Of a stretch of 64,000 nucleotides of DNA, positions 32,040-57,953 are shown piece by piece (the stretch's first letter is position 1; each line of letters starts with the position of its first letter). This stretch comes from Prevotella sp. GTDB taxonomy: Bacteria > Bacteroidota > Bacteroidia > Bacteroidales > Bacteroidaceae. The translations under genes and the position numbers were made by a program. The stretch spans positions 1 through 64,000 of the forward strand of contig JAFZIZ010000015.1 in NCBI GenBank assembly GCA_017554145.1, written 5' to 3'. The notes beneath the pieces were generated by a model. That model was not told the origin of the DNA, ran no database searches, and worked only from the letters and a program-made list of their open reading frames with translations.

Positions 32040-33935
32040 ATGATTCTGAAATACGACGTACTGGTCATCGGAGGCGGGCATGCTGGATGTGAGGCAGCAT
32101 GTGCTTCTGCTAACATGGGGGCGAATACTTGTTTAGTAACTATGGACATGAACAAGATTGCGCAGATGTCATGCAATCCTGCCGTTGGTGGCATTGCCAA
32201 AGGACAGATAGTCCGTGAGATTGATGCCTTAGGAGGACAGATGGGACTTGTTACTGATGCCACCGCCATCCAGTTTCGTATGCTCAATCGCAGCAAGGGA
32301 CCTGCTATGTGGAGTCCTCGAGCCCAATGTGATAGAGGAAAATTCATCTGGCAATGGAGAAGTACGCTCGACCATACGGACAATCTCGATATATGGCAAG
32401 ACCAAGCAGACGAACTACTTGTAGAAAACGGAGAGGCTGTAGGTGTGAAGACCATCTGGGGTGTTGAACTCAGGGCTAAGGCTGTCATTGTAACTGCTGG
32501 CACTTTCCTTAATGGACTGATGCATATCGGACGAAAGATGGTTCCAGGCGGACGAATAGCAGAACCTGCCGTTCCCCATTTCACAGAAAGTATTACGCGT
32601 CATGGTATTCGTTCAGAGAGAATGAAAACGGGTACACCTGTCCGCATTGATAAGCGCTCCGTTCATTTTGAAGATTTAGAGATTCAGGAAGGAGAACATG
32701 ACTTCCATCAGTTCTCTTATATTAGTGAGCCTCGCCCATTACCCCAACTGACCTGTTGGACTTGTAATACCAATGCTGCCGTCCATGAGACATTACGCTC
32801 AGGACTCAAAGACTCTCCTCTTTATAATGGACAGATTCAATCTATCGGACCACGCTATTGTCCTTCGATAGAAACGAAACTCATGACTTTCCCTGAACGA
32901 GAACAACATCCGCTTTTTTTGGAGCCAGAAGGAACTGATACCAACGAATTGTATCTAAACGGTTTCTCATCGTCGCTTCCGATGGATGTACAGATATCCG
33001 CTTTGAAACACATCCCTGCTTTCAGAGACCTAAAAGTATATCGTCCTGGCTATGCTATCGAATACGATTTCTTTGATCCCACCCAACTGAAACACTCGTT
33101 GGAATCGAAAATCATCAACGGATTATTCATGGCAGGACAGGTGAATGGAACCACGGGTTATGAGGAAGCGGGAGGACAAGGAACAATTGCAGGCATCAAT
33201 GCTGCTTTATATGCAGGAGCAGCAGGTTGCGATTCCGTTGCAACAGATAAGACCTTTGTTCTCCACAGAGACGAAGCTTATATCGGAGTTTTAATTGACG
33301 ATCTGGTAACGAAAGGAGTGGATGAACCATATCGTATGTTTACTTCTCGAGCAGAGTATCGTATTCTGCTACGTCAGGATGATGCTGATGCAAGACTGAC
33401 AGAAAAAGCATACCATTTAGGCATAGCCAAGAAAGATAGATACGACTTGTGGATGCAGAAAAAAGAAGCCATCGAAGAAATCGAAACTTTCTGCAAGACC
33501 TATCACATCAAACCAAAAGTCATCAATGGTGCTTTAGAAGCGTTGGGCAGTACCCCACTCGTCTATGGCTGTAAGTTAGAAGACTTAGTAGCACGTCCTG
33601 AATTAAACTTTGCCAAACTGGAAGAAGTGATTCCAGAATTGAAAGAAACCCTGAATCGTCCTACTTCGCGAAAAGAAGAGATTGCAGAAGCAGCAGAAGT
33701 GCATATCAAATATAAAGGATATATTGAACGAGAGAAAGTCGTAGCCGATAAGATGCATCGCTTAGAGAACATCAAAATCAAGGGGCACTTTAATTATGGC
33801 GAACTGCAACAACTGAGCACAGAAGCTAGACAAAAATTGACTGCAATAGATCCAGAAACTTTGGCACAAGCTAGTAGGATTCCTGGCGTTTCACCCAGCG
33901 ATATCAACGTTTTGTTGGTATTAATGGGTAGATAA
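32040..33935 (+). CDS. mnmG: tRNA uridine-5-carboxymethylaminomethyl modification enzyme MnmG (GidA)
   Basis: 631 residues, full length. The FAD site is VIGGGHAGCEAACASANMG at the N-terminus; NPAVGGIAKGQIVREIDALGG and the PRYCPSIE and GYEEAGGQG blocks are diagnostic. With MnmE it modifies U34 of certain tRNAs. In many bacteria gidA lies near the replication origin and par genes; here a parS-like site begins directly after its stop and a DnaA-box cluster lies 8.7 kb away. No mnmE, parA or parB is in the window. Confidence 0.96.
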   Translation: MILKYDVLVIGGGHAGCEAACASANMGANTCLVTMDMNKIAQMSCNPAVGGIAKGQIVREIDALGGQMGLVTDATAIQFRMLNRSKGPAMWSPRAQCDRGKFIWQWRSTLDHTDNLDIWQDQADELLVENGEAVGVKTIWGVELRAKAVIVTAGTFLNGLMHIGRKMVPGGRIAEPAVPHFTESITRHGIRSERMKTGTPVRIDKRSVHFEDLEIQEGEHDFHQFSYISEPRPLPQLTCWTCNTNAAVHETLRSGLKDSPLYNGQIQSIGPRYCPSIETKLMTFPEREQHPLFLEPEGTDTNELYLNGFSSSLPMDVQISALKHIPAFRDLKVYRPGYAIEYDFFDPTQLKHSLESKIINGLFMAGQVNGTTGYEEAGGQGTIAGINAALYAGAAGCDSVATDKTFVLHRDEAYIGVLIDDLVTKGVDEPYRMFTSRAEYRILLRQDDADARLTEKAYHLGIAKKDRYDLWMQKKEAIEEIETFCKTYHIKPKVINGALEALGSTPLVYGCKLEDLVARPELNFAKLEEVIPELKETLNRPTSRKEEIAEAAEVHIKYKGYIEREKVVADKMHRLENIKIKGHFNYGELQQLSTEARQKLTAIDPETLAQASRIPGVSPSDINVLLVLMGR

Positions 33936-33951
33936 TGTTCCACGTGAAACA
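33936..33951. other. parS-like centromere site 1
   Basis: TGTTCCACGTGAAACA, identical to the 16-bp parS consensus known from Bacillus subtilis, starting at the base after the mnmG stop codon. ParB/Spo0J would bind it in chromosome segregation. Confidence 0.8.
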
Positions 33952-33980
33952 ATAATATTTATAATATAAAACTGATCGTA

Positions 33981-34511
33981 ATGAACAATCCTGTACTATT
34001 AGAAAACCTTCGTTGTATTCCTGATTTTCCACAAAAAGGAATTAACTTTAGAGATGTAACGACTCTCTACAAAAGTGCTGAATGTCTAAAGATTATGCTC
34101 GACGAAATGTATGAGCTATATAAAGACAAAGGCATCACAAAGATTGTTGGTATTGAAAGCCGTGGTTTTATCATGGCATCTGCACTTGCTGCACGTTTAG
34201 GTGCAGGTGTTGTATTAGCGAGAAAACCAGGAAAGCTACCCGCAACGGTCATTAAAGAATCGTATTCGAAGGAATATGGTGTTGATACCATTGAGATGCA
34301 TATCGACTCTATCGATGAGAATGATGTGGTTTTAATCCATGATGATTTGCTTGCAACAGGTGGAACAGCATTAGCAACTTACAAACTTGTGAAGAACTTT
34401 AACCCCAAGAAGGTTTATATGAATTTCATCATTGAGATTACAGACGAGGGGTTGCATGGTAGAGATGTGTTTAAGGGATTAGTGGACGTAACTACACTAT
34501 TAACCATCTAA
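33981..34511 (+). CDS. apt: Adenine phosphoribosyltransferase
   Basis: 176 residues, standard length. It makes AMP from adenine and PRPP in purine salvage. The opening IPDFPQKGINFRDVTTLYK and the PRPP loop VVLIHDDLLATGGTALAT are diagnostic. The gene is bracketed by two parS-like sites, one 29 bp before its start and one 1 bp after its stop. Confidence 0.96.
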   Translation: MNNPVLLENLRCIPDFPQKGINFRDVTTLYKSAECLKIMLDEMYELYKDKGITKIVGIESRGFIMASALAARLGAGVVLARKPGKLPATVIKESYSKEYGVDTIEMHIDSIDENDVVLIHDDLLATGGTALATYKLVKNFNPKKVYMNFIIEITDEGLHGRDVFKGLVDVTTLLTI

Positions 34512-34512
34512 C

Positions 34513-34528
34513 TGTTTCACGTGAAACA
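34513..34528. other. parS-like centromere site 2
   Basis: TGTTTCACGTGAAACA, a perfect 16-bp palindrome matching the general bacterial parS consensus. It lies between the apt stop and the uvrC start and is 577 bp from site 1. Confidence 0.82.
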
Positions 34529-34534
34529 AATAAT

Positions 34535-36355
34535 GTGACTAAGGAAGAGAACGAAGTAAGGTTAGCAAGGCTAAAAGGCATTGTCAGCGCTATGCCAGAG
34601 AAGCCTGGCAGCTATCAGTATTATGATGCTGAAGGTACTATCATCTATGTTGGTAAGGCCAAGAACCTCAAAGCTCGTGTCTCTTCATATTTCCATAGCG
34701 AAGTCGATCGTTTCAAGACAAAGGTTCTAGTCTCTAAAATTCACGATATCAGTTATACCGTTGTGAACACTGAAGAAGATGCATTACTCTTGGAGAATGC
34801 GCTCATAAAGAAATATAATCCAAGGTATAATGTGCTGCTGAAAGACGGTAAGACCTACCCCTCTATTTGTGTCACCAAGGAATATCTACCTCGTATCTTT
34901 TCCACGCGTACCATCAATAAAAAATGGGGCACCTATTTTGGTCCTTATAGTCATGTAGGAGCTATGCATGCCCTACTCGATCTCATCAAGAAGTTATATC
35001 ATCCACGCACTTGTCGTTTCCCCATTACCAAGGAAGGAATAGAACTAGGAAAACACCAGGTTTGTTTGGAATATCACATTAAAAATTGTGCAGGACCATG
35101 CGTTGGAAAGCAGTCGTATGAGGATTATCAAAAGAACATCTTACAGGCTCGAGAGATATTGAAAGGCAACACGCGTGAGGTACTTCGAGCGATGAAAGTT
35201 GAGATGATGCGATTGGCTGAAGAACTCCGTTTCGAAGAGGCCGAAGAAGTGAAAAGGAGATACCTGCTGATAGATCAGTTTGTCGCTAAGAGTGAAGTCG
35301 TCAGCCATACCATCGACAACGTCGATGTGCTCTCTATCACCAACGATGAGAAAGTCGCTTTCATCAACTACATCCACGTCTCAAATGGTCAGATTAACCA
35401 GAGTTTTACCTTCGAATATAAGAAGAAACTCGACGAGACAGATGCTGAATTATTGCAGTTAGGAATTGTGGAAATGCGCGAGCGATTCCATAGTAAAGCA
35501 AAGGAAATCATACTGCCTCAGGAGATCAATCTCGACCTTGAAGGCGTAACCATTACAGTACCTCAGCGAGGCGATAAAAAGACGCTACTTGACCTCTCTT
35601 TGATGAATGGAAAACAGTATAAATTCGATCGTCTCAAACAAGCAGAGAAACTCAATCCAGAGCAGAAAAGCGTTCGATTAATGAAAGAGCTACAAGACCT
35701 GTTGCATCTACCCAAACTACCCTATCAGATTGAATGTTTCGATAACTCAAATATCTCTGGTTCTGATGCGGTGGCTGCCTGTGTCGTATTCAAAAAAATG
35801 AAGCCTTCTAAGGCAGATTATCGCAAATACAACATCAAAACGGTTGTAGGTCCAGATGATTATGCGTCGATGAAAGAGGTGGTTTATCGGCGCTATAAAC
35901 GGCTTTTAGAAGAAGAACAGCCTCTTCCTGACCTCATAGTAGCAGATGGTGGAAAAGGACAAATGGAAGTCATCCGACAGGCTGTTCAAGACGAACTCAA
36001 CCTTGATATCCCCATTGCCGGATTAGCTAAAAACGATAGACATCGTACCAACGAACTGCTTTATGGTTTTCCTGCAAGAGTAATTGGTATGAAGACAGAG
36101 TCAGAACTGTTCAGAGTACTCACCCACCTACAGGATGAAGTACACCGTTTTGCCATCACCTTCCATCGTGACAAGCGTTCCAAGCATGCCTTACATTCTG
36201 AGTTAGACGATATCAAGGGTATCGGACCTAAGGCGAAAGAAACGTTGTTGAAAGCTTTTAAGAGTGTGAAACGTATCAAGGAAGCAGATATTGAAGCCCT
36301 TGAAGAAGTAATCGGAAAGTCGAAAGCTAGCCTTGTTTATCAATATTTCCATTAA
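34535..36355 (+). CDS. uvrC: Excinuclease ABC subunit C
   Basis: 606 residues. UvrC makes both incisions in nucleotide excision repair. Domains in order: GIY-YIG nuclease (GSYQYYDAEGTIIYVGKAKN), Cys-containing region (CLEYHIKNCAGPCVGKQSYEDY), UVR motif (AEELRFEEAEEVKRRY), RNase H-like nuclease (IECFDNSNISGSDAVAACVVF with the catalytic Asp) and C-terminal helix-hairpin-helix (LDDIKGIGPKAKETLLKAF). The start is GTG at 34535: the nearby ATG at 34533 is in another frame and is at once followed by TGA. The start is 6 bp behind parS-like site 2. Confidence 0.96.
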   Translation: MTKEENEVRLARLKGIVSAMPEKPGSYQYYDAEGTIIYVGKAKNLKARVSSYFHSEVDRFKTKVLVSKIHDISYTVVNTEEDALLLENALIKKYNPRYNVLLKDGKTYPSICVTKEYLPRIFSTRTINKKWGTYFGPYSHVGAMHALLDLIKKLYHPRTCRFPITKEGIELGKHQVCLEYHIKNCAGPCVGKQSYEDYQKNILQAREILKGNTREVLRAMKVEMMRLAEELRFEEAEEVKRRYLLIDQFVAKSEVVSHTIDNVDVLSITNDEKVAFINYIHVSNGQINQSFTFEYKKKLDETDAELLQLGIVEMRERFHSKAKEIILPQEINLDLEGVTITVPQRGDKKTLLDLSLMNGKQYKFDRLKQAEKLNPEQKSVRLMKELQDLLHLPKLPYQIECFDNSNISGSDAVAACVVFKKMKPSKADYRKYNIKTVVGPDDYASMKEVVYRRYKRLLEEEQPLPDLIVADGGKGQMEVIRQAVQDELNLDIPIAGLAKNDRHRTNELLYGFPARVIGMKTESELFRVLTHLQDEVHRFAITFHRDKRSKHALHSELDDIKGIGPKAKETLLKAFKSVKRIKEADIEALEEVIGKSKASLVYQYFH

Positions 36356-42089: not shown

Positions 42090-42623
42090 ATGAGAAAGAT
42101 TAGAACCATAGAGATGAATCGCCTCAGTATTGAGGAGTTTCAAAAAGCAGATAAACTACCCCTTATTGTTGTACTCGATGATGTACGTTCCATGTATAAT
42201 GTAGGTAGTGTTTTTCGTACTTGTGACGCCTTTAGAGTAGAGGCAGTATATCTGTGTGGTATTAGTTGTACTCCCCCTGCTACTGAAATACATAAGACTG
42301 CTTTAGGTGCTGAAGATGCTGTTAATTGGAAATACTTTAAAACTGCATTAGAAGCAGTTGAAGAACTCAAAATACAAGATTATCATGTACTATCTGTTGA
42401 ACAAGTAGAACACTCTACTAAACTACAAACATTTATACCTCAAAAGAACCAAAAGTATGCTGTTATTTTAGGTAATGAAGTAAAAGGTGTTCATCAGGAA
42501 GTTGTTGACGCCTCTGATGGTTGTCTGGAAATACCTCAATTAGGTACAAAACACTCTATGAATGTAAGTGTCACAGCTGGTATTATCATTTATAAATTTG
42601 CTGAACAATTAATATTAAAATAA
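42090..42623 (+). CDS. TrmH/SpoU family RNA 2'-O-methyltransferase
   Basis: 177 residues with the three SPOUT motifs: VRSMYNVGSVFRTCDAF, VILGNEVKGV and IPQLGTKHSMNVSVTAGI, so a knotted methyltransferase of the SpoU branch with no extra substrate-binding domain. It methylates ribose in tRNA or rRNA; the target base is not evident. Probably co-transcribed with polA. The gap after it carries the DnaA-box cluster. Confidence 0.9.
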   Translation: MRKIRTIEMNRLSIEEFQKADKLPLIVVLDDVRSMYNVGSVFRTCDAFRVEAVYLCGISCTPPATEIHKTALGAEDAVNWKYFKTALEAVEELKIQDYHVLSVEQVEHSTKLQTFIPQKNQKYAVILGNEVKGVHQEVVDASDGCLEIPQLGTKHSMNVSVTAGIIIYKFAEQLILK

Positions 42624-42990
42624 CTGTGGATAAGTATGTGTATAACTGTGTGAATATTGATATGGGAATAAACAAATACTACTTCCCTACTCTTTCCATT
42701 TGTGATTATAATGTATAAAATATAATAGTACTCATCACTTTTCCACTCAATTTTAATGAAAAAAAATATAAACTTATTATATTTGCACCAAAATTGAGAA
42801 ATGTGGATAAACTACTTACTCATCTCAAAATCAATAAGAAATAATCCACAGAATATGTGAAATAGTACGAATCACAAGTGAATAAGTAAACTTGCAAGAA
42901 AAAGACGAAAAAGTTTTGCACTTGTCAACAGTATATCATCATATTCATTTCATTTTTAAAGAAAAAATAAAAAGAAAATATAATAATATT
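42624..42990. other. Candidate chromosomal replication origin (oriC) with DnaA boxes
   Basis: A 367-bp AT-rich gap without genes. DnaA boxes (TTATNCACA) read on the minus strand: TGTGGATAA 42625-42633, TGTGTATAA 42637-42645, a one-mismatch TGTGAATAT 42649-42657, and TGTGGATAA 42802-42810; on the plus strand TAATCCACA 42842-42850 has one mismatch. The first three are spaced exactly 12 bp. A/T-only stretches (about 42758-42784 and 42953-42990) could be unwinding elements. Two parS-like sites lie 8-9 kb away. Confidence 0.7.
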
Positions 42991-43983
42991 ATGGTGTTGA
43001 AAAAGGAATGGCTTAAACAAGGTTTTATAGACGAACCTGTTGCTGAAGGTATTGATCTTCAAAAAGAAATTCGTAGAATAGCTGAAGAAAAGAATGCTGT
43101 GATATTGGCACATTACTATACGAGAGGAGAAATACAAGAGATAGCAGATTTTATTGGTGATTCTCTTGCTTTGGCTCGTAAGGCTGCAGAAACAGATGCT
43201 AAAATCATAGTGATGTGTGGTGTTCATTTTATGGCTGAGACTTGTAAGATACTTTCTCCTGATAAACTAATATTATGTCCTGATTTAAATGCTGGTTGTT
43301 CTTTAGCAGATAGTTGTAAGGCAGAAGACTTGAAAAAATACAAGAAAGAACATCCTGGTTATCAAGTAGTAAGTTATGTAAATACTACTGCTGCTGTAAA
43401 AGCATTGACCGATGTAGTAGTAACCAGTGGTAATGCAAAGAAAATCATTGATACTTTCCCTCAAGATGCTAAGATTATCTTTGGTCCTGATTATAATTTA
43501 GGATCATATATCAATGATATTACAGGAAGAAAAATGTTATTATGGAATGGTGGATGTCATGTACATGAGCGTTTTTCAGTACCTGAAATTATTAAATTAA
43601 AAGAAGAACATCCTAAAGCATTAGTATTGGCACATCCAGAATGTAAAGGTCCTGTACTTGCTGTAGCTGATATAGTGGGCTCTACAGCCGTTATTTTGAA
43701 GTATGCGGTAGAACACCCCACTGAAGAGTATATAGTGGCTACAGAGGCCGGAATATTGCATGAGATGCAACGTCAATGTCCTCATACCAACTTCTATCCT
43801 GTTCCACCAGAGATATCAGAAGGTAGTATAGGTTGTCATTGTAATGAATGTGACTATATGAAAATGAATTCTCTTATAAAGATTTACAATGCTTTGAAAT
43901 ATGAATGGCCAACTGTTGAAGTAGATCCTAAGATAGCAAAGAAAGCAGTAAAACCAATAGAAAGAATGCTGGAGCTAAGTTAA
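42991..43983 (+). CDS. nadA: Quinolinate synthase
   Basis: 330 residues from ATG 42991 (MVLKKEWLKQGF); the frame is open upstream but only with a TTG start and low-complexity sequence. NadA condenses iminoaspartate and dihydroxyacetone phosphate to quinolinate for NAD synthesis. The [4Fe-4S] Cys are within VVMCGVHFMAETCK-type, CPDLNAGCSLADSC and GSIGCHCNECDYMKMN blocks. HYYTRGEIQEIADFIGDSLAL is diagnostic. It is the first gene to the right of the proposed origin. Confidence 0.95.
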   Translation: MVLKKEWLKQGFIDEPVAEGIDLQKEIRRIAEEKNAVILAHYYTRGEIQEIADFIGDSLALARKAAETDAKIIVMCGVHFMAETCKILSPDKLILCPDLNAGCSLADSCKAEDLKKYKKEHPGYQVVSYVNTTAAVKALTDVVVTSGNAKKIIDTFPQDAKIIFGPDYNLGSYINDITGRKMLLWNGGCHVHERFSVPEIIKLKEEHPKALVLAHPECKGPVLAVADIVGSTAVILKYAVEHPTEEYIVATEAGILHEMQRQCPHTNFYPVPPEISEGSIGCHCNECDYMKMNSLIKIYNALKYEWPTVEVDPKIAKKAVKPIERMLELS

Positions 43984-44006
43984 TATATATCTTTCATTTA
44001 TTTATA

Positions 44007-45539
44007 ATGAAGTTATCAAATTTATTTATAAAGAAGAATATTTTACCTTTAGCAATGTTTGTTTTTTTTATAACATTGTTTTATGGTTTTACATTCATTC
44101 TAATAGATTTTATTGATACTCCAGTAAATAGTTTTATAGATATATTAGTTATTGTATCCAAATGTGGATATATGATTATTATGACATATATATTATTGTA
44201 TTTTATTTCTTCAAATAAATATATATTTGCTTTTATCTTTCCTTTATTATCAGTCTTGTGTAGTATATTATCATATTATAAACTTACTCTACATGTAGAG
44301 TTAACACAGATGATAATAGATTTAGCCATGACAAATGATTTTCGTACAAGTTTTGATGCTCTATCATGGCAACTAGTATTAATTATATTATTAATATTTT
44401 TTATTTCAATTTGGATAGTATATTATAGGTTTAAAAAGATAATTATTAAATATAGCTGGATACATTTTATTATAGCATTTTTCATTTTATTATTAATTAA
44501 TAGCACATACATTCTTTATGGACCATTAGAAAGACATACTCCATATTCTATTTATTATTCTTTTCAGAGTTATTTTGAAAATAGACGTATTATAGTTGAA
44601 GAACGTCCTCTATTTAATAATAATGCAATATGTCATAGTGATTCAGTAATAGTAGTATTTGTTTTAGGGGAATCTCTTAACGCTAAAAATATGCAATTGA
44701 ATGGTTATCATCGCCCTACTACACCATATATTATTAAAGAAAAAAATGTGATATCTTTGCCTCATATATATTCTGAATATGCTTATACACATGAAAGTGT
44801 ACCTTATATTCTTACTCGTGCTGATCATCAACATCCTGATTTAGCATATCAAGAACGCTCTTTTATAAGTATTTTCAAACAAGTAGGTTATCGAACAATT
44901 TGGTTAGCTAATCAAGAATCGGTCAATACTTTCGTATATTTCATGAATGAATGTGATTCACTTATTAATGTAAGTAACGGTAAATCTTTATTTATATATA
45001 GCAAATGGTTGGATGAAGATATTCTACCACATTATAAAAATGTTTTATCAGAATTATATAATAATAAATTATTAATAGTACACACTATAGGTTCTCATTG
45101 GTATTATAATAATCATTATCCTGATAGTTTTACATATTTTAAGCCTATTATTCAAAGTAAAGTAATATCTTCAAATAGTCATGAGGAAATGGTTAATTCT
45201 TATGATAATACTATTTTATATAGCGACTATATTTGGTATTTATTGATAAATGAATTAAGAGATAAGAAAGCTATTTTGATATATTTGGCAGACCATTCTG
45301 AGAACATGGGTGAAGATGGTCATTATACTCATGGTGATGGAGATTGGCCAGCACAACATTATCCAGGATGTTTTATTTGGTATTCTGATAAATATCTAAT
45401 GGCTTATCCTAAAAAAATTGAAGCCTTGAAGGAAAATAAAAATAAAAAATATAATACATCTTTTCTTTTTCATTCAATTTTGGATGCAGCAGACATACAG
45501 TCAAATTATATAAATCAATTAGAAAATATATTTAGATGA
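44007..45539 (+). CDS. EptA/LtaS-type membrane phosphoethanolamine transferase-like protein
   Basis: 510 residues. Five N-terminal membrane segments (about 13-35, 43-67, 72-90, 120-140, 150-170) are followed by an alkaline-phosphatase-fold domain outside the membrane. The nucleophile position is Ser223 in VLGESLNAKNMQLNGYHRPT, where EptA enzymes have Thr. Metal ligands fit LADHSENMGEDGHYTHG. It may add a phosphoethanolamine or similar group to lipid A or a glycan. The gene is strikingly AT-rich and overlaps the acyltransferase gene by 4 bp. Both look acquired or fast-evolving relative to the neighbours. Confidence 0.8.
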   Translation: MKLSNLFIKKNILPLAMFVFFITLFYGFTFILIDFIDTPVNSFIDILVIVSKCGYMIIMTYILLYFISSNKYIFAFIFPLLSVLCSILSYYKLTLHVELTQMIIDLAMTNDFRTSFDALSWQLVLIILLIFFISIWIVYYRFKKIIIKYSWIHFIIAFFILLLINSTYILYGPLERHTPYSIYYSFQSYFENRRIIVEERPLFNNNAICHSDSVIVVFVLGESLNAKNMQLNGYHRPTTPYIIKEKNVISLPHIYSEYAYTHESVPYILTRADHQHPDLAYQERSFISIFKQVGYRTIWLANQESVNTFVYFMNECDSLINVSNGKSLFIYSKWLDEDILPHYKNVLSELYNNKLLIVHTIGSHWYYNNHYPDSFTYFKPIIQSKVISSNSHEEMVNSYDNTILYSDYIWYLLINELRDKKAILIYLADHSENMGEDGHYTHGDGDWPAQHYPGCFIWYSDKYLMAYPKKIEALKENKNKKYNTSFLFHSILDAADIQSNYINQLENIFR

Positions 45540-46546
45540 AACGCTTAATATGGATAGATAATGCTAAAGCAATTGGTATTTTTCTGGTAATATTAGCACA
45601 CACTCAGATTGTGAGTAGTGTAGTTGATTGGATTTCAGTATTTCGAATGCCATTATTCTTCTTTCTTTCTGGTTGTCTGTTTTCTTTTCAGCGTAATCCA
45701 AATTTTCTTTTGTTCTTTAAAAAACGTTTTCGTCAAATAGTTATTCCGTATATTCTTATCAATGTAATTACGTATTTATTTTGGTTATTAGTGAGTCGTC
45801 ATTATGGTATCTCTTCAGTTGAAGAAACAATACCATGGTATAGTCCTTTAAAAGCTATTTTGTTATGTAATGGTAAAGAAATGATCCATAACATTCCATT
45901 ATGGTTCCTATTATGTCTGTTTTTGGTAGAGATTATCTATTATGTGGTTTATAAGTCTCTATTAAGATGGCAAAAATGGTTAGTAACGTTTCTTTTTTGT
46001 TTTCTCGGATATATTAATTATAAATTTGTTCCTTTTGTATTACCATTTAGTTTAGGAACAGCTTTTGTAGGTATAGTATTCTATTTTCTAGGTAATGAGT
46101 TTATAAATAATACCAAATCCTTTAGTTTATCACTTTCATTAAACCTTGTTGTTTTAGTTATTTCAGTAGTTTTAGTAACTTATTTTTCTATTGCAAATAG
46201 TCGTGTTTATCTATATTGTAATCAATATGGTAATTATTTATCTTTTTTATTTGCCGCTTTATGTGGTATATGTATGATGTATATTTTCACAAATATCCTT
46301 TCCAGATGGTTGGGATCAAACAAAATAATAGAGTATATATCCCGTAATACATTAACGATATGTGGTTTTCATTTGATGACATATACTTTCCTAAAAGGAA
46401 TAGCAGTATATATAATAGGAATTCCATTAGAGTCATTTAATGGTGCTGTTTTACTTAATATCGTATTAGCAGCAATAGGAATGTCTATATGCTGTATGAT
46501 TGCTTATTTATTAAATAAATATTGTCCTATCCTATTAGGAAAATAA
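45536..46546 (+). CDS. Acyltransferase 3 family membrane protein
   Basis: 336 residues with about ten membrane segments. The family signature is at the start: RLIWIDNAKAIGIFLVILAH with the catalytic His, then FRMPLFFFLSGCLF and the RxR-like FKKRFRQIVIPY. It transfers acyl groups, typically acetyl, onto a surface sugar. ATGA overlap with the transferase gene implies joint action on lipopolysaccharide or another envelope glycan. Very AT-rich like its partner. Confidence 0.85.
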   Translation: MKRLIWIDNAKAIGIFLVILAHTQIVSSVVDWISVFRMPLFFFLSGCLFSFQRNPNFLLFFKKRFRQIVIPYILINVITYLFWLLVSRHYGISSVEETIPWYSPLKAILLCNGKEMIHNIPLWFLLCLFLVEIIYYVVYKSLLRWQKWLVTFLFCFLGYINYKFVPFVLPFSLGTAFVGIVFYFLGNEFINNTKSFSLSLSLNLVVLVISVVLVTYFSIANSRVYLYCNQYGNYLSFLFAALCGICMMYIFTNILSRWLGSNKIIEYISRNTLTICGFHLMTYTFLKGIAVYIIGIPLESFNGAVLLNIVLAAIGMSICCMIAYLLNKYCPILLGK

Positions 46547-46552
46547 ATCCAA

Positions 46553-48565
46553 TTATTTGATAATAGCAATCTTACATACCACTCCTTTATTTCCATCATT
46601 TGTAGCAGTGATGACATTATAAACACCACTGGCAACACGATGACCACTTTTGTCTTTACCATCCCATGTAAATAATCCACCATTGCTTCGTCCTTCATTG
46701 ATTAGGAAACCTGCAGCATTAGTAATTTTTACATCAGCATTAAAGGTAAGCCCAGTAATAGTAATAAGTCCAGTATAATTGTTTAAATCAACAGGATTGG
46801 GATATGCATATACATTATCTTCAGTCATTTCTTCTGAAGGTTCTACAGCATCACTGATATAAGAACATAATCCTTGATTCGTACCAAAGAAAACTTCACC
46901 TGTTTGCTGATTAATGGCTATGGATTCGATAACATCACTCAATAGTGGACTATTGGTTGTTGTGAAATGCTGTATTTGTGTATTATTATCTGCACTAATT
47001 AGATAAACACCATTGCCATTCGTACCAAACCATTTACGTCCAGCACCATCAATAGCCATACTTGTGATATCTATTCCAGCAAGCAGATAATCCGCATAGT
47101 CACTACCATCATTTCTGGGTACTTTATACTGAATAACGCCACGTGATGGGTCTTCTAATTCAGCAGAAGTAAGATATACAGGACCTTTATCAGTTCCCAC
47201 CCAGATATTACCGTCTTTGTCTTCACAGATACATTCTGCCCATACATTACCCAAACTTACTCCATCTTCATTCGTAAAATTATCGTATTTATATATCTCG
47301 TTATTTTGATAATCATAACAGAAGAAAGAGGGATGATCGCTATGAGCATTGACAAACCACATTAATCCACGACTATCCATCATCGAGCCTTTCATGACAC
47401 GCATAGCATGATCAGGTTTATCAATAAGGGCTTTATTCATGAATCCACTCCACTTACCATCACTACTACGTTTAATAATACCAGTCTTTGAACTACTATT
47501 CAAACAATAAAGATTACCTTCCTGATCGTATATGATACCATCAGTACGAACATAATTAGGATCTCCATTACTGGCAGCAGACTCAAAATAATCAGTATTT
47601 CCAGCTGTATAGTTGCTTTTGAATTTTCCATCAAGGAATTCGTATACTCCTGAACAAGAGGCAACCATTACATGATTCTCATTCAAAGGATCAACAGCAA
47701 TAGAATTGACATCTTGATACTTTGGAGCAAAAGCAGGTTTGATATCGTCTTGATAGATGGTCCATTCTCCGTCTTCATTTAATACCTGAATAGTTCCTGG
47801 TCTTTTAAAATTATCAAACTGATACCATCCGCCCCCTACCGTATAAAGTTTACCTAGATGCATCTTCATATTGAAGAAGAAATTGTGTTTGGGTCCTCCA
47901 GGATTCAGTTTCTTAACCGTTTCTATATAGGTATTATAGTCTTTGTTATCATCATCAAAAGAAGGAGATGTTGTTGCTTTTTGCCAGTTATTAGGATCTA
48001 TCAGATTCTTACTCATCGAACCACAAATCACACCATCGTCAGTCTTGGCATAAAGCATGTTGTTTTCAATACTGATATTCAGGATATTCTGATTGAGCAT
48101 ATATGACTCGCTGATTTCATGATTCTGAACATCCAGTTTAACGATACCAAATCCACATGCCAGATAAGCATATTGTTCGTGAATTGTGATATAATTAATC
48201 TTTTTATCACCCGTAATGACCTTGGCATAAAGGTCACTGATATTAATGACATCATTCTCAATACTAACTAAATCAATATTGGAGTTCTGATAGGCGACAA
48301 TCAGGTATTTGGCTGATGGACACCATTTGATATGTGTGATATAGGTATCACTCATACCATTGGTTTTGTCGTATGTATAGATTGTCTGGTCGTTGAGATT
48401 ATACTGATAGAGGTCATTGCTTGCCATCACGAATAGATCATCACCAGCTTTCTGTATCTGTTGCACATCATGGTAGGCCATATATGCCTTCCATGTTCCA
48501 ATCTGGCTAAAAGCTAAATGCCAATAGCTAAATGCCAATAACAGGATGATGACAAGCTTCTTCAT
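46553..48565 (-). CDS. porZ: PorZ-like beta-propeller protein of the type IX secretion system
   Basis: 670 residues: signal peptide, two beta-propeller domains with many WVGTDKG and VMASCSG-type blades, and a C-terminal sandwich (YAYPNPVDLNNYTGLITITG to VCKIAIIK) like type IX sorting domains. In Porphyromonas gingivalis PorZ sits on the surface and helps attach A-LPS to cargo. The opening IGTWKAYMAYHDVQQIQK is typical of PorZ. Five bp behind rdgB in the leuS-yitT-rdgB-porZ unit. The signal peptide (LAFSYWHLAFSQ) is encoded by a 7-bp tandem array (48506-48540). Confidence 0.85.
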   Translation of the reverse strand: MKKLVIILLLAFSYWHLAFSQIGTWKAYMAYHDVQQIQKAGDDLFVMASNDLYQYNLNDQTIYTYDKTNGMSDTYITHIKWCPSAKYLIVAYQNSNIDLVSIENDVINISDLYAKVITGDKKINYITIHEQYAYLACGFGIVKLDVQNHEISESYMLNQNILNISIENNMLYAKTDDGVICGSMSKNLIDPNNWQKATTSPSFDDDNKDYNTYIETVKKLNPGGPKHNFFFNMKMHLGKLYTVGGGWYQFDNFKRPGTIQVLNEDGEWTIYQDDIKPAFAPKYQDVNSIAVDPLNENHVMVASCSGVYEFLDGKFKSNYTAGNTDYFESAASNGDPNYVRTDGIIYDQEGNLYCLNSSSKTGIIKRSSDGKWSGFMNKALIDKPDHAMRVMKGSMMDSRGLMWFVNAHSDHPSFFCYDYQNNEIYKYDNFTNEDGVSLGNVWAECICEDKDGNIWVGTDKGPVYLTSAELEDPSRGVIQYKVPRNDGSDYADYLLAGIDITSMAIDGAGRKWFGTNGNGVYLISADNNTQIQHFTTTNSPLLSDVIESIAINQQTGEVFFGTNQGLCSYISDAVEPSEEMTEDNVYAYPNPVDLNNYTGLITITGLTFNADVKITNAAGFLINEGRSNGGLFTWDGKDKSGHRVASGVYNVITATNDGNKGVVCKIAIIK
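48506..48540. repeat. 7-bp tandem repeat encoding part of the PorZ signal peptide
   Basis: Five units in register on the plus strand: GCTAAAA, GCTAAAT, GCCAATA, GCTAAAT, GCCAATA. In the minus-strand gene they encode the end of the signal peptide. Confidence 0.75.
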
Positions 48566-48570
48566 ATACT

Positions 48571-49182
48571 CTATAGCGTTTTTAGATACTCAGCCAACTT
48601 TTGGGTGGCTCTTGCACGATGACTAATCGTGTTCTTGATATCTACCCCCAGTTCAGCAAAAGTCTTGTCGTAGCCTTCTGGTTGGAAGATAGGGTCGTAG
48701 CCGAAGCCCTCCCCTCCCCTTTTCTCACGGATGATTTCACCCTCTACGATACCTTCAAACTGACTGACTTTCTTGATACTGGTGCAGCCACAAGGACACA
48801 CATCTTTTTTCTCTATTAACGCAATGACAGTACGGAATCGTGCCTTACGGTTGTTATTATTTCCTAATTCACGCAACAATTTTGCCATATTCGCCTCACT
48901 ATCATGGCCTTCGCCACCAGCATAGCGAGCAGAATAGACACCAGGTGCACCATTAAGTGCATCCACTTCCAGACCAGTATCATCCGCAAAACAACTCACA
49001 TGATAGTGGTCATACACATATTGTGCTTTCTGCAAGGCATTTTCTTCCAATGTCTTACCAGTCTCTGGAATATCCTCGTCACAACCAATCTCATGAAGGG
49101 AAACAACCTCAAATTTGTCTCCTAAGATACTTCTGATTTCCTCTAATTTGTGTTGATTGTTAGTGGCGAATACTATCTTCAT
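48571..49182 (-). CDS. Non-canonical purine NTP pyrophosphatase (RdgB/HAM1 type)
   Basis: 203 residues, normal size. It removes dITP, XTP and similar from the nucleotide pool. [16 protein letters not shown] at the start and [24 protein letters not shown] are diagnostic; the late [10 protein letters not shown] motif is present. A Cys-rich insertion ([14 protein letters not shown]) replaces a normally short loop. It overlaps the yitT gene by 23 bp. Confidence 0.94.
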
Positions 49183-50116
49183 GATTCTTCTTCTCTTGCT
49201 TAATCTTTACCTTCATCTCGTCAAATCCTTCACCATAGACACCAATGACAGCACTCTGGGAAACAAAAGCCTGTGGGTCAATCATCTTGATCAAACGGAA
49301 GATATAGACGCTCTCACGCTTCTTGGCGAGGATACAGAGTACTTTGATTTCCTGTCCTGTATACCAGCCGTGACCATCCAAAATCGTAACGCCATGGTTC
49401 ATCTCTGTACCAATAGCATTGGCTATCTCTTGCCATTTACGAGTGAAAATAAGGAACTGTACAGACTCCCTTCGAGCATTCATCACATAGTCGAGCACGA
49501 AGTTCTCCATCGCCATCACACAGAAACCGAACATCACCTTATGGGCACGCTCGATATAGGTACCAAATTGTGGGAAGAACATACAGGAACCGATGATACA
49601 GAAATCGACGGCAATGAGTACGGAACCCAGCGATACGTTATGGTATTTGTTGATACTGGCAGCGATGATATCCGTACCTCCTGTCGATCCGTTATGCAAG
49701 AAGACGGTGGCTAATCCAATACCCGTCAAGGCACATCCTATAATCATCGACATAAAGTCCTGCCCTTCTCCCAAGAGTTTGATGGGCAGTCCGTTCTCTT
49801 GAGTCGGCAAGGCGTTTTGTGCGAATATCAACAGGAAATAAAGGGCGAAGATGGCATAGATGGTTTTCACCATGAACTTAAAGCCCAATATCTTCAATGC
49901 CACCACCAATAGAATACCGTTAATGATGATATAGGTATTCTCCAAGTGGAAACCAGTAGCATAGTAGATGATAGCGGAAAGACCCGTGACACCTCCTGCC
50001 ACAATCTGATAAGGCATCAGAAAGACGGTGAAGGCGATGGTATACATCACAAGTCCAAGGGTTATAAAGAAATAATCCTTGAACTCGTTCCAGATGATTT
50101 TGTGATTGACTGTCAT
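49160..50116 (-). CDS. YitT family membrane protein
   Basis: 318 residues. Five to six membrane segments in the first 200 residues (including [27 protein letters not shown] and [20 protein letters not shown], the YitT signatures), then a cytoplasmic DUF2179 domain ([20 protein letters not shown]). Transport function is suspected for the family but the substrate is unknown. Shares one base with the leuS stop. Confidence 0.9.
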
Positions 50117-52965
50117 TACTTACCTAATACGATGTTCACCATACGCTTAGGGACGATGATAACCTTTACAATAGCTTTGCCGTCGATGTATTTGGTAGAG
50201 CGCTCGTCAGCCAGTACCGTCTTCTCAATCGTAGCATTGTCGGCATCAGCAGGGAACTCCATATCGAAGCGCGTCTTACCATTGAAGGCAACACCCAGTT
50301 TCACATTGTTCTCTACGAGGTATTCCTCATTCCATGCAGGCCATTTCGAATCGCAAACACTACCCTGCTCTCTCAGTGCCTCCCATAGTTCTTCTGCGAT
50401 ATGGGGTGCAAATGGCGCAATCAGGATGACGAGTGTCTTCAAAGCCTCACGACTCTTACACTTCTGCTGAGCCAACTCGTTGACGCAGATCATAAAGGCA
50501 GAGATAGAGGTATTATATGAGAACACTTCGATGTCTTGCGACACTTTCTTGATGAGTTTATGAACACTCTTTAGATTGTCCTTCGTGGGTTCACTATCAT
50601 CTACTAACAACTTGCCCTCAGCATTATCACGAGCGTTGCCATAGAACAAAGCCCAGAACTTCTTCAGGAAGCGATGACAACCGTCAATACCGTTGGTGTC
50701 CCAAGGCTTCGACTGCTCAACAGGACCTAAGAACATCTCGTAGAGACGCAAGGTGTCTGCACCATATTTCTCGACAATCATATCTGGATTGACCACGTTG
50801 AACATCGATTTTGACATCTTCTCAATCGCCCAACCACAGATATATTTACCGTTCTCAAGGATGAACTCAGCATTATTATATTCAGGACGCCAAGCCTTGA
50901 AGGCATCGATGTCGAGCACATCGGCAGAAACGATATTCACATCCACGTGGATAGGTGTTGTGGTGTACTTGTCCTTCAAGCCGAAACTTACGAACTTACC
51001 TTTATCGGCACCCTCGTCCTCGATACGATAGACGAAGTTAGAGCGACCTTGAATCATACCCTGGTTCACGAGTTTCTTGAAAGGCTCGTCCTCACATGAG
51101 TAACCAGAATCATAGAGGAACTTATTCCAGAAACGAGAATAGATCAGGTGACCTGTAGCGTGCTCTGTACCTCCTACATAGAGGTCCACATTACGCCAGT
51201 ACTCGTCGATATCCTTATTCACCAGTGCCTTCTCGTTCTTTGGATCCATATAGCGCAGATAATAAGCCGATGAACCAGCGAAACCAGGCATCGTGTTCAA
51301 CTCCAACGGGAAGACAGTCTTGTTGTCAATCTCGTCCTTGCTGACCACCTTGTCGAACTTGGTGTCCCAAGCCCACATCTTGGCGCGTCCTAATGGGGGC
51401 TCACCTGTTTCTGTTGGCTTGTACTCGTCAATCTCAGGCAACTCCAGTGGCAGACACTCCTTAGGAATCGTATAAGGCATATCGTCCTTGTAGTACACAG
51501 GGAACGGCTCACCCCAATAACGCTGGCGAGAGAAGATGGCATCACGCAGGCGATAGTTTACCTTCACACGACCCAAGCCTTGCTCTGTGACGAACTTCTT
51601 CGTGGCAGCAATGGCCTCCTTCACAGTGAGTCCGTTGAGGCTGAACTTACTGCTTGCAGAGTTGCACATGATACCTTCCTTGGCATCATAACTCTCTTCA
51701 CTGACATCTGCACCCTCAATCAATGGGATGATAGGCAGGTTGAAGTGCTTGGCGAAGGCATAGTCGCGACTATCGTGAGCAGGTACTGCCATGATAGCAC
51801 CAGTACCATATCCTGCCAATACATATTCTGCAATCCAGATGGGGATCTTCTCGTCGTTAAATGGATTGATGGCGTAACTTCCAGAGAACACACCCGTTAC
51901 CTTGTGGTCCATCTGGCGATCACGCTCTGTGCGCTTCTTCACATAGTCGAGATACTTGTCTACTTCAGCCTTCTGTTCTGGGGTAGTCAATTCTGCTACA
52001 AGTTCACTCTCAGGTGCCAGTACCATAAACGTCACACCAAACATCGTGTCAGCACGCGTGGTGAAGATGGTGAAGTGCTTGTCGCTGTCAGCCACCTTAA
52101 ACTCAACCTCAGTACCCTCTGAGCGACCAATCCAGTTACGCTGTGTCTCTTTCAAAGAGTCTGTCCAGTCGATCTCCTCGAGACCATCCAACAGACGCTG
52201 TGCGTATGCGGAAACACGCAGACACCACTGGCGCATCTTCTTCTGTACAACAGGATATCCACCACGAACGGATACGCCGTCGACAACCTCATCGTTAGCC
52301 AATACGGTTCCGAGTTTAGGACACCAGTTCACCATTGTATCAGCGAGATAGGCGATACGATAGTTCATCAGCACCTCCTGCTTTTTCTTCTCAGAGAAGG
52401 CTGCCCAGTCAGAAGCCGTAAAGTGCAACTCCTCGGTACCCAGAGCACCACAGTTTTCTGTTCCCATCAATTCAAAGTGCTCAATGAGTTTGATGGTGGG
52501 TTGTGCCTTCTGTGAGGAAGTGCTATAATAACTCTTGAACATACGTTGGAACGCCCATTGTGTCCACTTATAGTAGATGGGGTCACAAGTGCGTACCTCA
52601 CGTTCCCAGTCGAACGAAAAACCAATCTTATCCAACTGACTACGATAGCGGTCGATGTTTTCAAAGGTGGTCTTCTCAGGGTGCTGACCTGTCTGGATAG
52701 CATACTGCTCAGCAGGCAGTCCATAGGCATCATAACCCATGGGGTTCAGCACGTTATATCCCTGCTGACGCTTATAGCGGGCATAGATATCACTGGCGAT
52801 ATAGCCGAGTGGATGACCCACATGCAAACCTGCACCAGAAGGGTAGGGGAACATGTTCAGTACGTAGAACTTTTTCTTTGTAGGATCCTCCTTTACGCGA
52901 TAGGTCTGCATCTCCACCCATCGCTTCTGCCATTTCTGTTCAATGTCTCTAAAATTGTACTCCAT
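50116..52965 (-). CDS. leuS: Leucyl-tRNA synthetase
   Basis: 949 residues, class I synthetase. The HIGH motif is [16 protein letters not shown], the KMSKS motif is EKMSKSMFN, and an editing domain (around [17 protein letters not shown]-like [13 protein letters not shown]) is inserted. It charges tRNA-Leu in the cytoplasm. First gene of the leuS-yitT-rdgB-porZ unit, with its own promoter at 53028-53058. Confidence 0.96.
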
Positions 52966-53027
52966 TGTATCTTGTTTTTATTTATGTTTCTTGCCTTCAG
53001 CCACATCAAAGATGTGGGGCTAAAGTG

Positions 53028-53058
53028 CAAAGATAGACAAAAGAAATGAATTGAGCAA
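53028..53058 (-). promoter_or_regulatory. Promoter of the leuS operon
   Basis: Minus strand: TTG (53056-53058), 20 bp, TATCTTTG (53028-53035), the Bacteroidota -33/-7 pattern, about 60 bp before the leuS ATG. Confidence 0.65.
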
Positions 53059-53082
53059 AAAAATACACAACATTTTTGTTCT

Positions 53083-53428
53083 AATGCCTTCTTTCACTTG
53101 AAGAAATGCCTCCTTAGGGGGTAAAGGAAGGCCTCCTTTCACTCATACTAGGCTTTAGTATAAGGTATTCCAAGCCCTCGAACAAGTGATAGAAGGCATT
53201 CCTTTGTTTGAGTCCAACTTTTGAGGTTCACTTCAATTACGAATGCAAAACAGATAGGTTGCATTTTTTCCTCCTCTTCGGAGCAGAACTTTTTTCTCTT
53301 CGGAGGAAAAAGTTTTCCTCTTCGGTCTAGTAAAAACGCTTAAGAAAAGTATATAGTTTACGAGTGCTAAGTATATAGTTTATGCTTGCTAAGTACTATA
53401 CTTACGAGTGCTAAACATATTGGTTTTG
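53083..53428. repeat. Degenerate 22-bp tandem arrays
   Basis: Three blocks. Near 53083-53214 similar words (AATGCCTTCTTTCACTTGA, AATGCCTCCTTAG, AAGGCCTCCTTTCACTCAT, AAGGCATTCCTTTG) recur at multiples of about 22 bp. TCTTCGG starts at 53275, 53297 and 53319, exactly 22 apart. Three 22-bp units starting near 53346 (AAGTATATAGTTTACGAGTG, AAGTATATAGTTTATGCTTG, AAGTACTATACTTACGAGTG) follow, each with (A/T)TGCT(A/T)-like ends. Confidence 0.7.
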
Positions 53429-53461
53429 AATTATCCTTCATCTGCTGTTCTCTTGCGCCCC

Positions 53462-54271
53462 TTATTCTATGCCGTAGAACTTGATAGCTTCAGATGAAAG
53501 GATGCTCTTATAGTCGATATTGTATTCTTTGCATAATTTGATTGTTCTTGCTGCGTCTGATTTGGCATCTTCAATATCTTTCTTGCTTATCAGGCTAGGG
53601 TCTTTTTTCCAATAATTATAATAATTTCTCATTTCATTTAATGAATAATTAAGATTCTTTACAATCTCCTGTCTGTACTCTGCCGATCGCTGTTTTGCCT
53701 CTGCCGATCGCTGTTTTGCCTCTGCCGACCGCTGTTTTGCCTCTGCCGACCGCTGTTTTGCTTCTGCCGACCGCTGTTTTGCCTCTGCCGACCGCTGTTT
53801 TGCCTCTGCCGACCGCTGTTTTGCTTCTGCCGACCGCTGTTTTGCTTCTGCCGACCGCCGTTGCATATAATTGATGATACCATTCTCATAATTATCAGAG
53901 AATGTCAATATCTTTTTCGAATTTTTTGCATATTCAATCTTTCTCGATTTATTCTCGTCATTAAGAAAATCATAGAATTTCTCTCTCGTGACACGATGAT
54001 AAATATTACTCCATATAAACAGGTATTGGTTATCTTTGCTGATGCCCCAGTCTTCCTTCATCTGCTCTTTGATGAATTGTTCTGTAAAACCATCATCATT
54101 AAGAAGAACTTTCTGCATCGTTTCGTTATTCCTCATGATGTTTTTGTACTCCGCAGACAGCGACACTCCCAATGCGTTGTCGAGACGATCAAAGATGTCC
54201 TGCGCCGATACCGTCGTGGCGGCAAGCAGCATCATCAGAAAAAGAATAGATTTTTTCATAAGCTTCATCAT
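53462..54271 (-). CDS. Exported protein with KQRSAEA heptapeptide tandem repeat
   Basis: 269 residues. Signal peptide MMKLMKKSILFLMMLLAATT (cleavage likely after VSA), an N-terminal domain of unknown type (to about residue 135), then nine copies of a 7-residue unit KQRSAEA (about 136-200), and a helical C-terminal part. The repeat is charged with Ala at regular places and should form one long helix or coiled coil. Its DNA is a near-perfect 21-bp tandem array. No family was recognised for the rest. ATG 54271, or Met2 or Met5, could be the start. Confidence 0.75.
   Translation of the reverse strand: MMKLMKKSILFLMMLLAATTVSAQDIFDRLDNALGVSLSAEYKNIMRNNETMQKVLLNDDGFTEQFIKEQMKEDWGISKDNQYLFIWSNIYHRVTREKFYDFLNDENKSRKIEYAKNSKKILTFSDNYENGIINYMQRRSAEAKQRSAEAKQRSAEAKQRSAEAKQRSAEAKQRSAEAKQRSAEAKQRSAEAKQRSAEYRQEIVKNLNYSLNEMRNYYNYWKKDPSLISKKDIEDAKSDAARTIKLCKEYNIDYKSILSSEAIKFYGIE
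53680..53866. repeat. 21-bp minisatellite (VNTR) in a coding sequence
   Basis: Copies begin with CTGCCGA at 53680, 53701, 53722, 53743, 53764, 53785, 53806, 53827 and 53848; eight are complete and the ninth is partial. Copies differ at only about two positions (GATCG/GACCG and GCCT/GCTT), so expansion is recent and copy number is likely to vary between strains. Confidence 0.9.
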
Positions 54272-54346
54272 CGTTTTATGGTTGCGAAGATACGAAGTAT
54301 TTCCGAAACTGCCAAAGAAAAAAGTCGGAAAAGTGACAAATTTGTT

Positions 54347-54376
54347 TTGTACTTCTCTCGTTTTTTCGTAACTTTG
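54347..54376 (+). promoter_or_regulatory. Upstream promoter of mutS
   Basis: TTG (54347-54349), 19 bp, TAACTTTG (54369-54376). It is one of two similar promoters before mutS. Confidence 0.5.
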
Positions 54377-54419
54377 GCTACGCCGAACTTACTCTGCACT
54401 CAGAAAAGCTCAAATAAAT

Positions 54420-54450
54420 TTGGCTTTTCCTTCGTTTTTGAGTAACTTTG
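54420..54450 (+). promoter_or_regulatory. Proximal promoter of mutS
   Basis: TTG (54420-54422), 20 bp, TAACTTTG (54443-54450). It lies 26 bp before the mutS ATG and repeats the sequence pattern of the promoter 74 bp upstream. Confidence 0.6.
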
Positions 54451-54476
54451 CCAACGATATTGAGTAGGATCAAGCA

Positions 54477-57092: not shown

Positions 57093-57093
57093 A

Positions 57094-57951
57094 CTATATA
57101 CTTTTTTTCCTAGCTCCTATCATACACCAAACCCCAAGCAGGATAAACGGGATAGAGAGTATCTGTCCCATATCGATGGGAAGGGATGCTTCGAAGGCTT
57201 CCTGTATCTCTTTCGTGTATTCGATGAAGAAACGGAAGGTGAAGATATAGGTGAGACAGAAACCGAAGTACCAGCCTGTACCGACTTGGGGACCTTTGGC
57301 TATTGGTCCATTAGTACATTTTTTATAGATGCCCCACATCAGAAAGAACAGAAGAGCATAGGCAATGGCCTCGTAGAGTTGTGCTGGATGACGAGGCATC
57401 TGATCTACGCGTTCGAAGATAAACGCCCAGGGCACTTCCGTTACCTTACCGATAATCTCTGAGTTCATCAGGTTACCTAAGCGGATGAAGCAGGCCATCG
57501 AGCCTGTAGCTATAGCGATATTATCAAGAACGGTCCAGATGCTTAGCTTGGTCTTCTTGACATAGAGCCAAAGGGCTATCATCAATCCAAGGGTGCCTCC
57601 ATGTGAGGCGAGTCCCTCATAGCCAACGAACTTCCAACCGCCTTCCGCCAGAAAACGGATAGGCAGGAACATCTCTATGATACCCTTTCCACTGGTCAGG
57701 AAATAGTCGGGCTCATAGAAGATACAATGACCTAAGCGAGCTCCTATCAGAATACCAAAGAAACAGTAGACGAAGAGAGGATCGAAGAGTTCGTCTTTGA
57801 TCTTCTGTTCGCGATAAAGTCGTCGTACCAACAGGAATGCAGCAGCAAAGCCCAAGAGCCAGCAGAGTCCATACCAGCGGATGACTATTGGACCTAAATG
57901 GAGTAACTCCAGATTCGGATTCCAATTGATATATAGAAGTTCCCAATTCAT
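57094..57951 (-). CDS. lgt: Prolipoprotein diacylglyceryl transferase
   Basis: 285 residues with about seven membrane segments. Lgt adds diacylglycerol to the lipobox Cys of prolipoproteins at the inner membrane. Signature pieces are [38 protein letters not shown]-type ([17 protein letters not shown]) and [35 protein letters not shown] is the conserved His-containing motif. Starts 2 bp behind the ychF stop. Confidence 0.95.
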
Positions 57952-57953
57952 CT

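Follow-up and report, generated by a model that had tools for sequence, protein, structure and literature searches.

Two palindromes beside mnmG as predicted chromosomal parS sites near a candidate replication origin of Prevotella

Two 16-bp palindromes flanking the apt gene of a Prevotella genome are identified here, with high confidence on the basis of their sequence and its conservation, as chromosomal parS sites, which form the centromere of a ParABS system. As putative docking sites of the ParB protein they are almost certain, and together they probably serve the main chromosome as its predicted ParB loading zone. The pair likely lies near the replication origin. The gene that matters in this arrangement is mnmG, and the reason for the location is most likely the origin. 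The window denotes below the whole stretch of DNA that was analysed (64,000 nucleotides). The sites and the genes around them are as follows:

32040..33935, plus strand: mnmG (gidA); TIGR00136, 760 bits (cut-off 525)
33936..33951, no strand given: predicted parS site 1, TGTTCCACGTGAAACA, between mnmG and apt; linked to mnmG and conserved more widely than site 2
33981..34511, plus strand: apt, adenine phosphoribosyltransferase; NF002636, 194 bits (cut-off 125); between the two sites
34513..34528, no strand given: predicted parS site 2, TGTTTCACGTGAAACA, a perfect palindrome between apt and uvrC; the second site, partly limited by lineage
34535..36355, plus strand: uvrC, with a GTG start; TIGR00194, 516 bits (cut-off 285); the right-hand flank

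With TIGR01090, the Apt protein scores 184.3 bits, just below the cut-off of 185.85. The first base of site 1 is the base right after the mnmG stop, and site 2 is placed between the apt stop (34511) and the uvrC GTG start (34535). Both 16-mers occur where the first-pass annotation had located them, and its claim of a full consensus match is borne out, as both agree with the 16-bp inverted repeat TGTTNCACGTGNAACA at all specified bases. Site 1 breaks the symmetry of the palindrome at position 5, a position that is left free in the Bacillus subtilis consensus TGTTNCACGTGAAACA (PMC7022226, table).

The parS core, GTTNCACGTGNAAC, occurs twice in the whole 2,797,331-base assembly of 38 contigs; both copies are those of this locus, 577 bp apart, and are thus not scattered round the genome. 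The reversed core, used as a control, gives 0 matches in the same assembly. By chance, 0.15 core copies would be expected per genome (from the base composition of the window), and 6.4 Mb of Markov sequence contains 0, in keeping with the earlier claim that two close matches are improbable by chance. Looser searches are less informative. When the full 16-mer is allowed up to 3 mismatches, the next best places in the genome carry 2 mismatches, and the pattern yields 14 matches vs 17 for the control; with 3 mismatches, at least 2 matches per window are found in 12/100 shuffles, and a pair of matches in one window would then be unremarkable. Since loose matches are no better than the control, the case rests on exactness and conservation, and on near-exact sites only. 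A chance origin of the pair is ruled out by the copy number of the core, by the Markov and composition expectations, and by the family-wide occurrence of the 16-mer with a reversed control of 0, described below.

Conservation was assessed in the 80 apt loci closest to the window's own Apt, which comprise 651 kb in total and in which up to 2 mismatches to the inverted repeat were accepted. Among named genomes, the 80 top-ranking Apt relatives belong mostly to Prevotella, Prevotellaceae or Bacteroidaceae, and many come from ruminants. The site upstream of apt is present in 77/79 loci (one of the 80 begins at apt) and the downstream site in 70/80, and the rest of the same 651 kb holds 7 further sites at this threshold. 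Two of the 80 loci (L100 and L112) have no site in either gap. Across 147 sites, which were picked for likeness, positions 2-4, 6, 10, 11 and 13-15 are invariant, positions 7, 8 and 9 show 1, 4 and 2 exceptions, respectively, and positions 1, 5, 12 and 16 are variable. Three loci without a site in the downstream gap carry a parS-like site within the long open frame 3' of apt, which is uvrC by position (L045:5554, L047:5212 and L073:5563). These are possibly centromere sites inside a coding sequence.

At the level of the family, the exact 16-mer is found in 124 of 201 genomes, and the reversed control gave 0 throughout. From the 77 genomes lacking the exact 16-mer, 26 were probed and 24 yielded an mnmG locus, among which 22 have a site with 1-2 mismatches adjoining mnmG. 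The remaining two, both of genus g21 (L179 and L180), show no parS-like site at that locus. In the phylum, the core is present in 274 of 296 Bacteroidota genomes, mostly in two copies and in up to ten, and absent from 22; in this search, the reversed core gives 1-2 matches in about 40 of the 296. One genome (G407) has nine copies inside 2.5 kb. In P. communis, two places match the 16-mer with at most 1 mismatch; they are 617 bp apart, and the next best place has 3 mismatches.

The genes beside the sites indicate what the sites follow. For this purpose, 54 family loci were pooled (30 fetched by the 16-mer and 24 from genomes without it), 49 of which have both mnmG and uvrC. Where apt lies between these two genes (39 loci), the mnmG-apt gap carries the site in 39/39 and the apt-uvrC gap in 8/39. 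Another 10 loci have no apt between the two genes, which are separated by 25-223 bases and so leave no room for it; here the site is kept in 9/10, including 5/6 of the apt-less loci that were not fetched by the 16-mer. In L179, apt is present, uvrC was not seen in the locus, and there is no site. A second set comprises 27 parS loci drawn from five further families in the class, with 1.5 kb inspected on each side and restricted to loci returned by the phylum search. Here, mnmG adjoins parS, at its 5' or 3' side, in 21/27 loci: 8/8 in family f3, 7/7 in f9, 5/5 in f5 and 1/2 in f10. In family f6, mnmG is near parS in 0/5 loci.

Because the site stays in 9/10 apt-less loci and 21/27 loci of other families adjoin mnmG, the link to apt is incidental, and the sites follow mnmG. 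In addition, the apt-uvrC site, and with it the bracketing of apt, is a partly lineage-limited addition, since it is present in 8/39 apt-bearing family loci but in 70/80 of the closest loci. The idea of a ParB loading zone around a purine salvage gene, as first proposed, is therefore retained as regards the predicted parS sites, while the purine salvage gene itself proves incidental. These data also bear on another explanation, namely that the palindromes are operators of a transcription factor controlling apt or the mnmG-apt-uvrC genes. Palindromes with a CACGTG core are frequent targets of regulators, and the sites do occupy the gaps on both sides of apt. This explanation is nevertheless extremely improbable, given that the site persists without apt, which rules out apt regulation, and that in other families of the class it adjoins mnmG at either end. 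Moreover, the core copies in the genome number just two and match the ParB consensus at all specified bases, and clusters such as the nine copies of G407 fit parS, not an operator.

A parS site presupposes its cognate proteins, and a search for parB, which the first-pass annotation had suggested, finds the gene present. The assembly is a draft Prevotella bin of 2.80 Mb in 38 contigs, 83.5% complete and 5.13% contaminated, and it contains two parA-parB loci, L006 on contig C14 and L007 on contig C22. A similar gene lies downstream of both diverged loci, which share four pieces (about 4.5 kb in total) in the same order at 68-75% DNA identity; the two ParB proteins are 72% identical. One of the two loci thus probably stems from another Prevotella in the bin, and C22 is the likelier foreign contig. 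The C22 locus was also considered as a sign of a second chromosome, which is less likely than contamination in view of the DNA identity, the shared order, the similarity of the ParBs and the contamination level of the bin. As the earlier reading had it, the sites lie away from parAB: both loci are on contigs other than that of the window. A parB gene is present in 10/10 other Prevotella genomes checked, and the distance from parB to parS is about 1.12 Mb in P. communis (parB at 2402 kb), 0.76 Mb in G005 (on one contig) and 0.51 Mb in G056 (with the contig taken as circular).

ParB passes the NCBIfam parB_part model (198.8 bits, cut-off 58.45). ParA stays below every NCBIfam cut-off, and its name is based only on its sequence and gene position. 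The solved Spo0J chains 1vz0 and 6sdk are among the matches of ParB, and 226 residues align to the ParB chain 6t1f, which we take to be Caulobacter ParB; an offset of 10 between the chain and the native residue numbers was derived from the R, T, A, G pattern. At the four specificity positions, the C14 ParB has R, Y, K and G, and the C22 ParB has F at the second; the same positions hold R, T, A and G in Caulobacter ParB and Q, K, K and R in Noc. R173 and G201 (Caulobacter numbering) are present in both own ParBs and in 9/10 relatives; the tenth (L217), for which the frame-picking motif returned no ParB sequence, falls outside this count. According to the sections of PMC7383237 consulted, these two residues are absolutely conserved in ParB and separate it from its paralogue Noc, and a lysine at 179 or 184 is termed permissive. 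The ParB of this genome has the permissive K at position 184.

R173 and G201 speak against an alternative in which a Noc-like nucleoid-occlusion protein, and not a segregation ParB, would bind the sites. The Noc model gives ParB its best NCBIfam bit score (236.8 bits), yet this is below the cut-off of 315, and the protein carries R and G at the positions where Noc has Q173 and R201. The sites are accordingly not Noc-binding sites (NBS) by the residues of their cognate protein. Furthermore, the parB gene adjoins parA, and the sites are two in number and close together, whereas in Firmicutes Noc sites occur in large numbers and are scattered. Binding by a Noc-like protein is thus highly improbable, and the palindromes are best regarded as predicted parS sites of a segregation ParB.

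The placement of the pair is most likely explained by a likely oriC, absent from the first-pass annotation, that is situated 8.1 kb from site 2 in an A+T-rich gap between a SpoU-family gene and nadA:

42090..42623, plus strand: SpoU-family RNA methyltransferase; flanks the candidate oriC on the left
42624..42891, no strand given: candidate oriC, the A+T-rich SpoU-nadA gap; DnaA boxes at 42625, 42637 and 42802 (minus strand)
42892..43983, plus strand: nadA, quinolinate synthase; flanks the candidate oriC on the right

The three DnaA boxes of this gap fall in 186 bases, and a cluster as tight arose in 2/500 simulated windows. GC skew of the 64-kb window alone is uninformative. Since the own genome is a draft, skew was examined in relatives.

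One such relative is P. communis E15-14, which has a complete chromosome (3.55 Mb). At 3547.6-3547.9 kb, its homologous gap holds a box cluster that lies 25 kb from parS (3522.4-3523.0 kb); the 312 kb that were scanned contain no other. From 0 to about 1.5 Mb the sampled GC skew has positive values, and between about 2.0 and 3.5 Mb it is negative, with the exception of a stretch at 3.30 Mb with positive skew (+0.112) inside the negative arm. Cumulative skew reaches its lowest value at the junction of the record, which lies 29 kb from parS, and dnaA is at 757 kb, 0.79 Mb from parS. In G005, the cumulative skew is noisy; its lowest part, at 2.62-2.72 Mb, is next to parS (2.63 Mb) and not to dnaA (0 Mb). 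The region 5' of nadA was inspected in 10/12 genomes where nadA was found. Five of these (the own genome, G164, G005, G150 and G075) have three or four boxes within 460 bases 5' of nadA, at 8-49 kb from parS. No such cluster 5' of nadA is found in G032, G043 and G008, which are of other genera, or in G056 and G092; in G032, nadA is 21 kb from parS, though without the cluster. Overall, seven genomes have a DnaA-box cluster 8-49 kb from parS.

That an origin lies next to dnaA is the textbook rule, and it could be supposed that the sites are genuine parS, that their proximity to a working origin is coincidental and that oriC is by dnaA. The skew scan of G150 (10 stretches), in which no clear minimum was seen, is compatible with this. 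However, the supposition is very unlikely in light of the skew minimum and box cluster near parS in P. communis and of the lowest skew in G005, each at a distance from dnaA. The published record points in the same direction: origins and dnaA do not systematically coincide, according to passages of PMC10197239, where dnaA is treated as an unreliable origin marker. Likewise, the predicted oriC of P. intermedia OMA14 has multiple DnaA boxes far from dnaA, as here, a situation described as common in Bacteroidetes in the relevant part of PMC4755523, where parS is not mentioned. It is concluded that the parS pair is likely near the replication origin.

A possible mode of action can be outlined by analogy with characterised ParB proteins. 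ParB dimers would load on each 16-bp site by way of their helix-turn-helix domain, turn into closed, CTP-bound clamps and then slide across the mnmG-apt-uvrC region. The resulting partition complex would be used by ParA to part freshly copied origins. In such a scheme the sites would act in trans to parAB, and what they would need is closeness to the origin, which the candidate oriC between the SpoU methylase gene and nadA would satisfy. Of the two sites, the one on the mnmG side is widely conserved, and the other would provide an additional loading point, gained or kept in only part of the family.

Both parS and its consensus, as well as its clustering near origins, are already known (PMC7022226 and PMC10197239, in the portions consulted). 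The sites resemble those of B. subtilis, where ParB is Spo0J, in having the same 16-bp palindrome and the same ParB family. B. subtilis, however, has 10 sites, 8 of them in the ori domain (PMC7022226, table), vs two sites 577 bp apart here, where parAB and dnaA lie away from them. Another comparison is offered by the gut Bacteroidales Bacteroides caecimuris and Muribaculum intestinale, members of the same phylum with the same consensus, whose parS cluster served as the marker of ori in a Hi-C study (PMC10197239); the consulted text of that paper does not name the neighbouring genes, an mnmG link or Prevotella. The name Prevotella occurs 0 times in PMC13342612.

The element is of an ordinary kind in an informative place, and its evolutionary pattern is modestly interesting. 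A linkage of mnmG and parS in Bacteroidota was not found among the literature matches listed (titles, abstract starts and passages); Livny et al. 2007 may reportedly already list such sites. That parS is repeatedly linked to mnmG, while dnaA and parAB change place, points to selection for holding the centromere, and not its genes, at the origin. In practical terms, the sites offer a way to locate by sequence the centromere and the probable origin in Prevotella. In this genus, which is common in the gut and rumen, dnaA is a misleading guide to the origin, and metagenomic estimates of growth rate hinge on a correct origin.

A further aspect concerns Prevotella with two replicons. Genome G056, presumably P. 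melaninogenica, consists of two contigs of 1,796,408 and 1,371,874 bases. Its contig C1 has parS at 62.9 kb, parB at 1344.8 kb and a DnaA-box cluster at 16.6-16.8 kb, and its skew is roughly chromosome-like (16 stretches). The cluster lies near relatives of the window genes 57954, 59259 and 60360, which are beyond the window's candidate oriC; the SpoU gene was not found near it. The other contig (C2) carries dnaA and nadA but lacks both core parS and a TIGR00180 parB, and it shows no clear skew over 14 stretches. The same split is observed in G092, where parS and parB are on one contig, and dnaA and nadA are on the other, where neither core parS nor a TIGR00180 ParB is present; the two sites of G092 are 829 bp apart, as in G056, and the reversed control of this genome also gives 2 core matches. 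For the second chromosome of P. intermedia, the corresponding part of PMC4755523 reports no clear skew transition and an unknown origin. The confinement of parS and parB to one contig of a two-contig Prevotella was not found among the literature matches listed.

These observations allow a broader proposal, which is tentative and, taken as a joint claim, stays somewhat short of probable. In much of the class, family f6 excepted, the mnmG-parS unit would be what stays in place in the origin region, with dnaA and parAB moved by up to about 1 Mb and with parS beside oriC in Prevotella. In two-chromosome Prevotella, oriC, parS and parB would reside on one chromosome only, and the dnaA-bearing other one, without canonical parS or ParB, would have to rely for its segregation on hitchhiking or on an undescribed system. 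A two-replicon Prevotella with one recognisable ParABS raises a testable question about the segregation of second chromosomes.

Two features of the surroundings of the window's candidate oriC were also recorded. Beside it, positions 44007-46546 are of very low G+C (0.26-0.33) and contain a sulfatase/phosphoethanolamine-transferase-like gene and an acyltransferase gene; a comparison with 72 kb of P. communis gives no match for them. In addition, the candidate oriC itself lies in a 17-kb segment of the window (42090-59054) that is inverted relative to P. communis.
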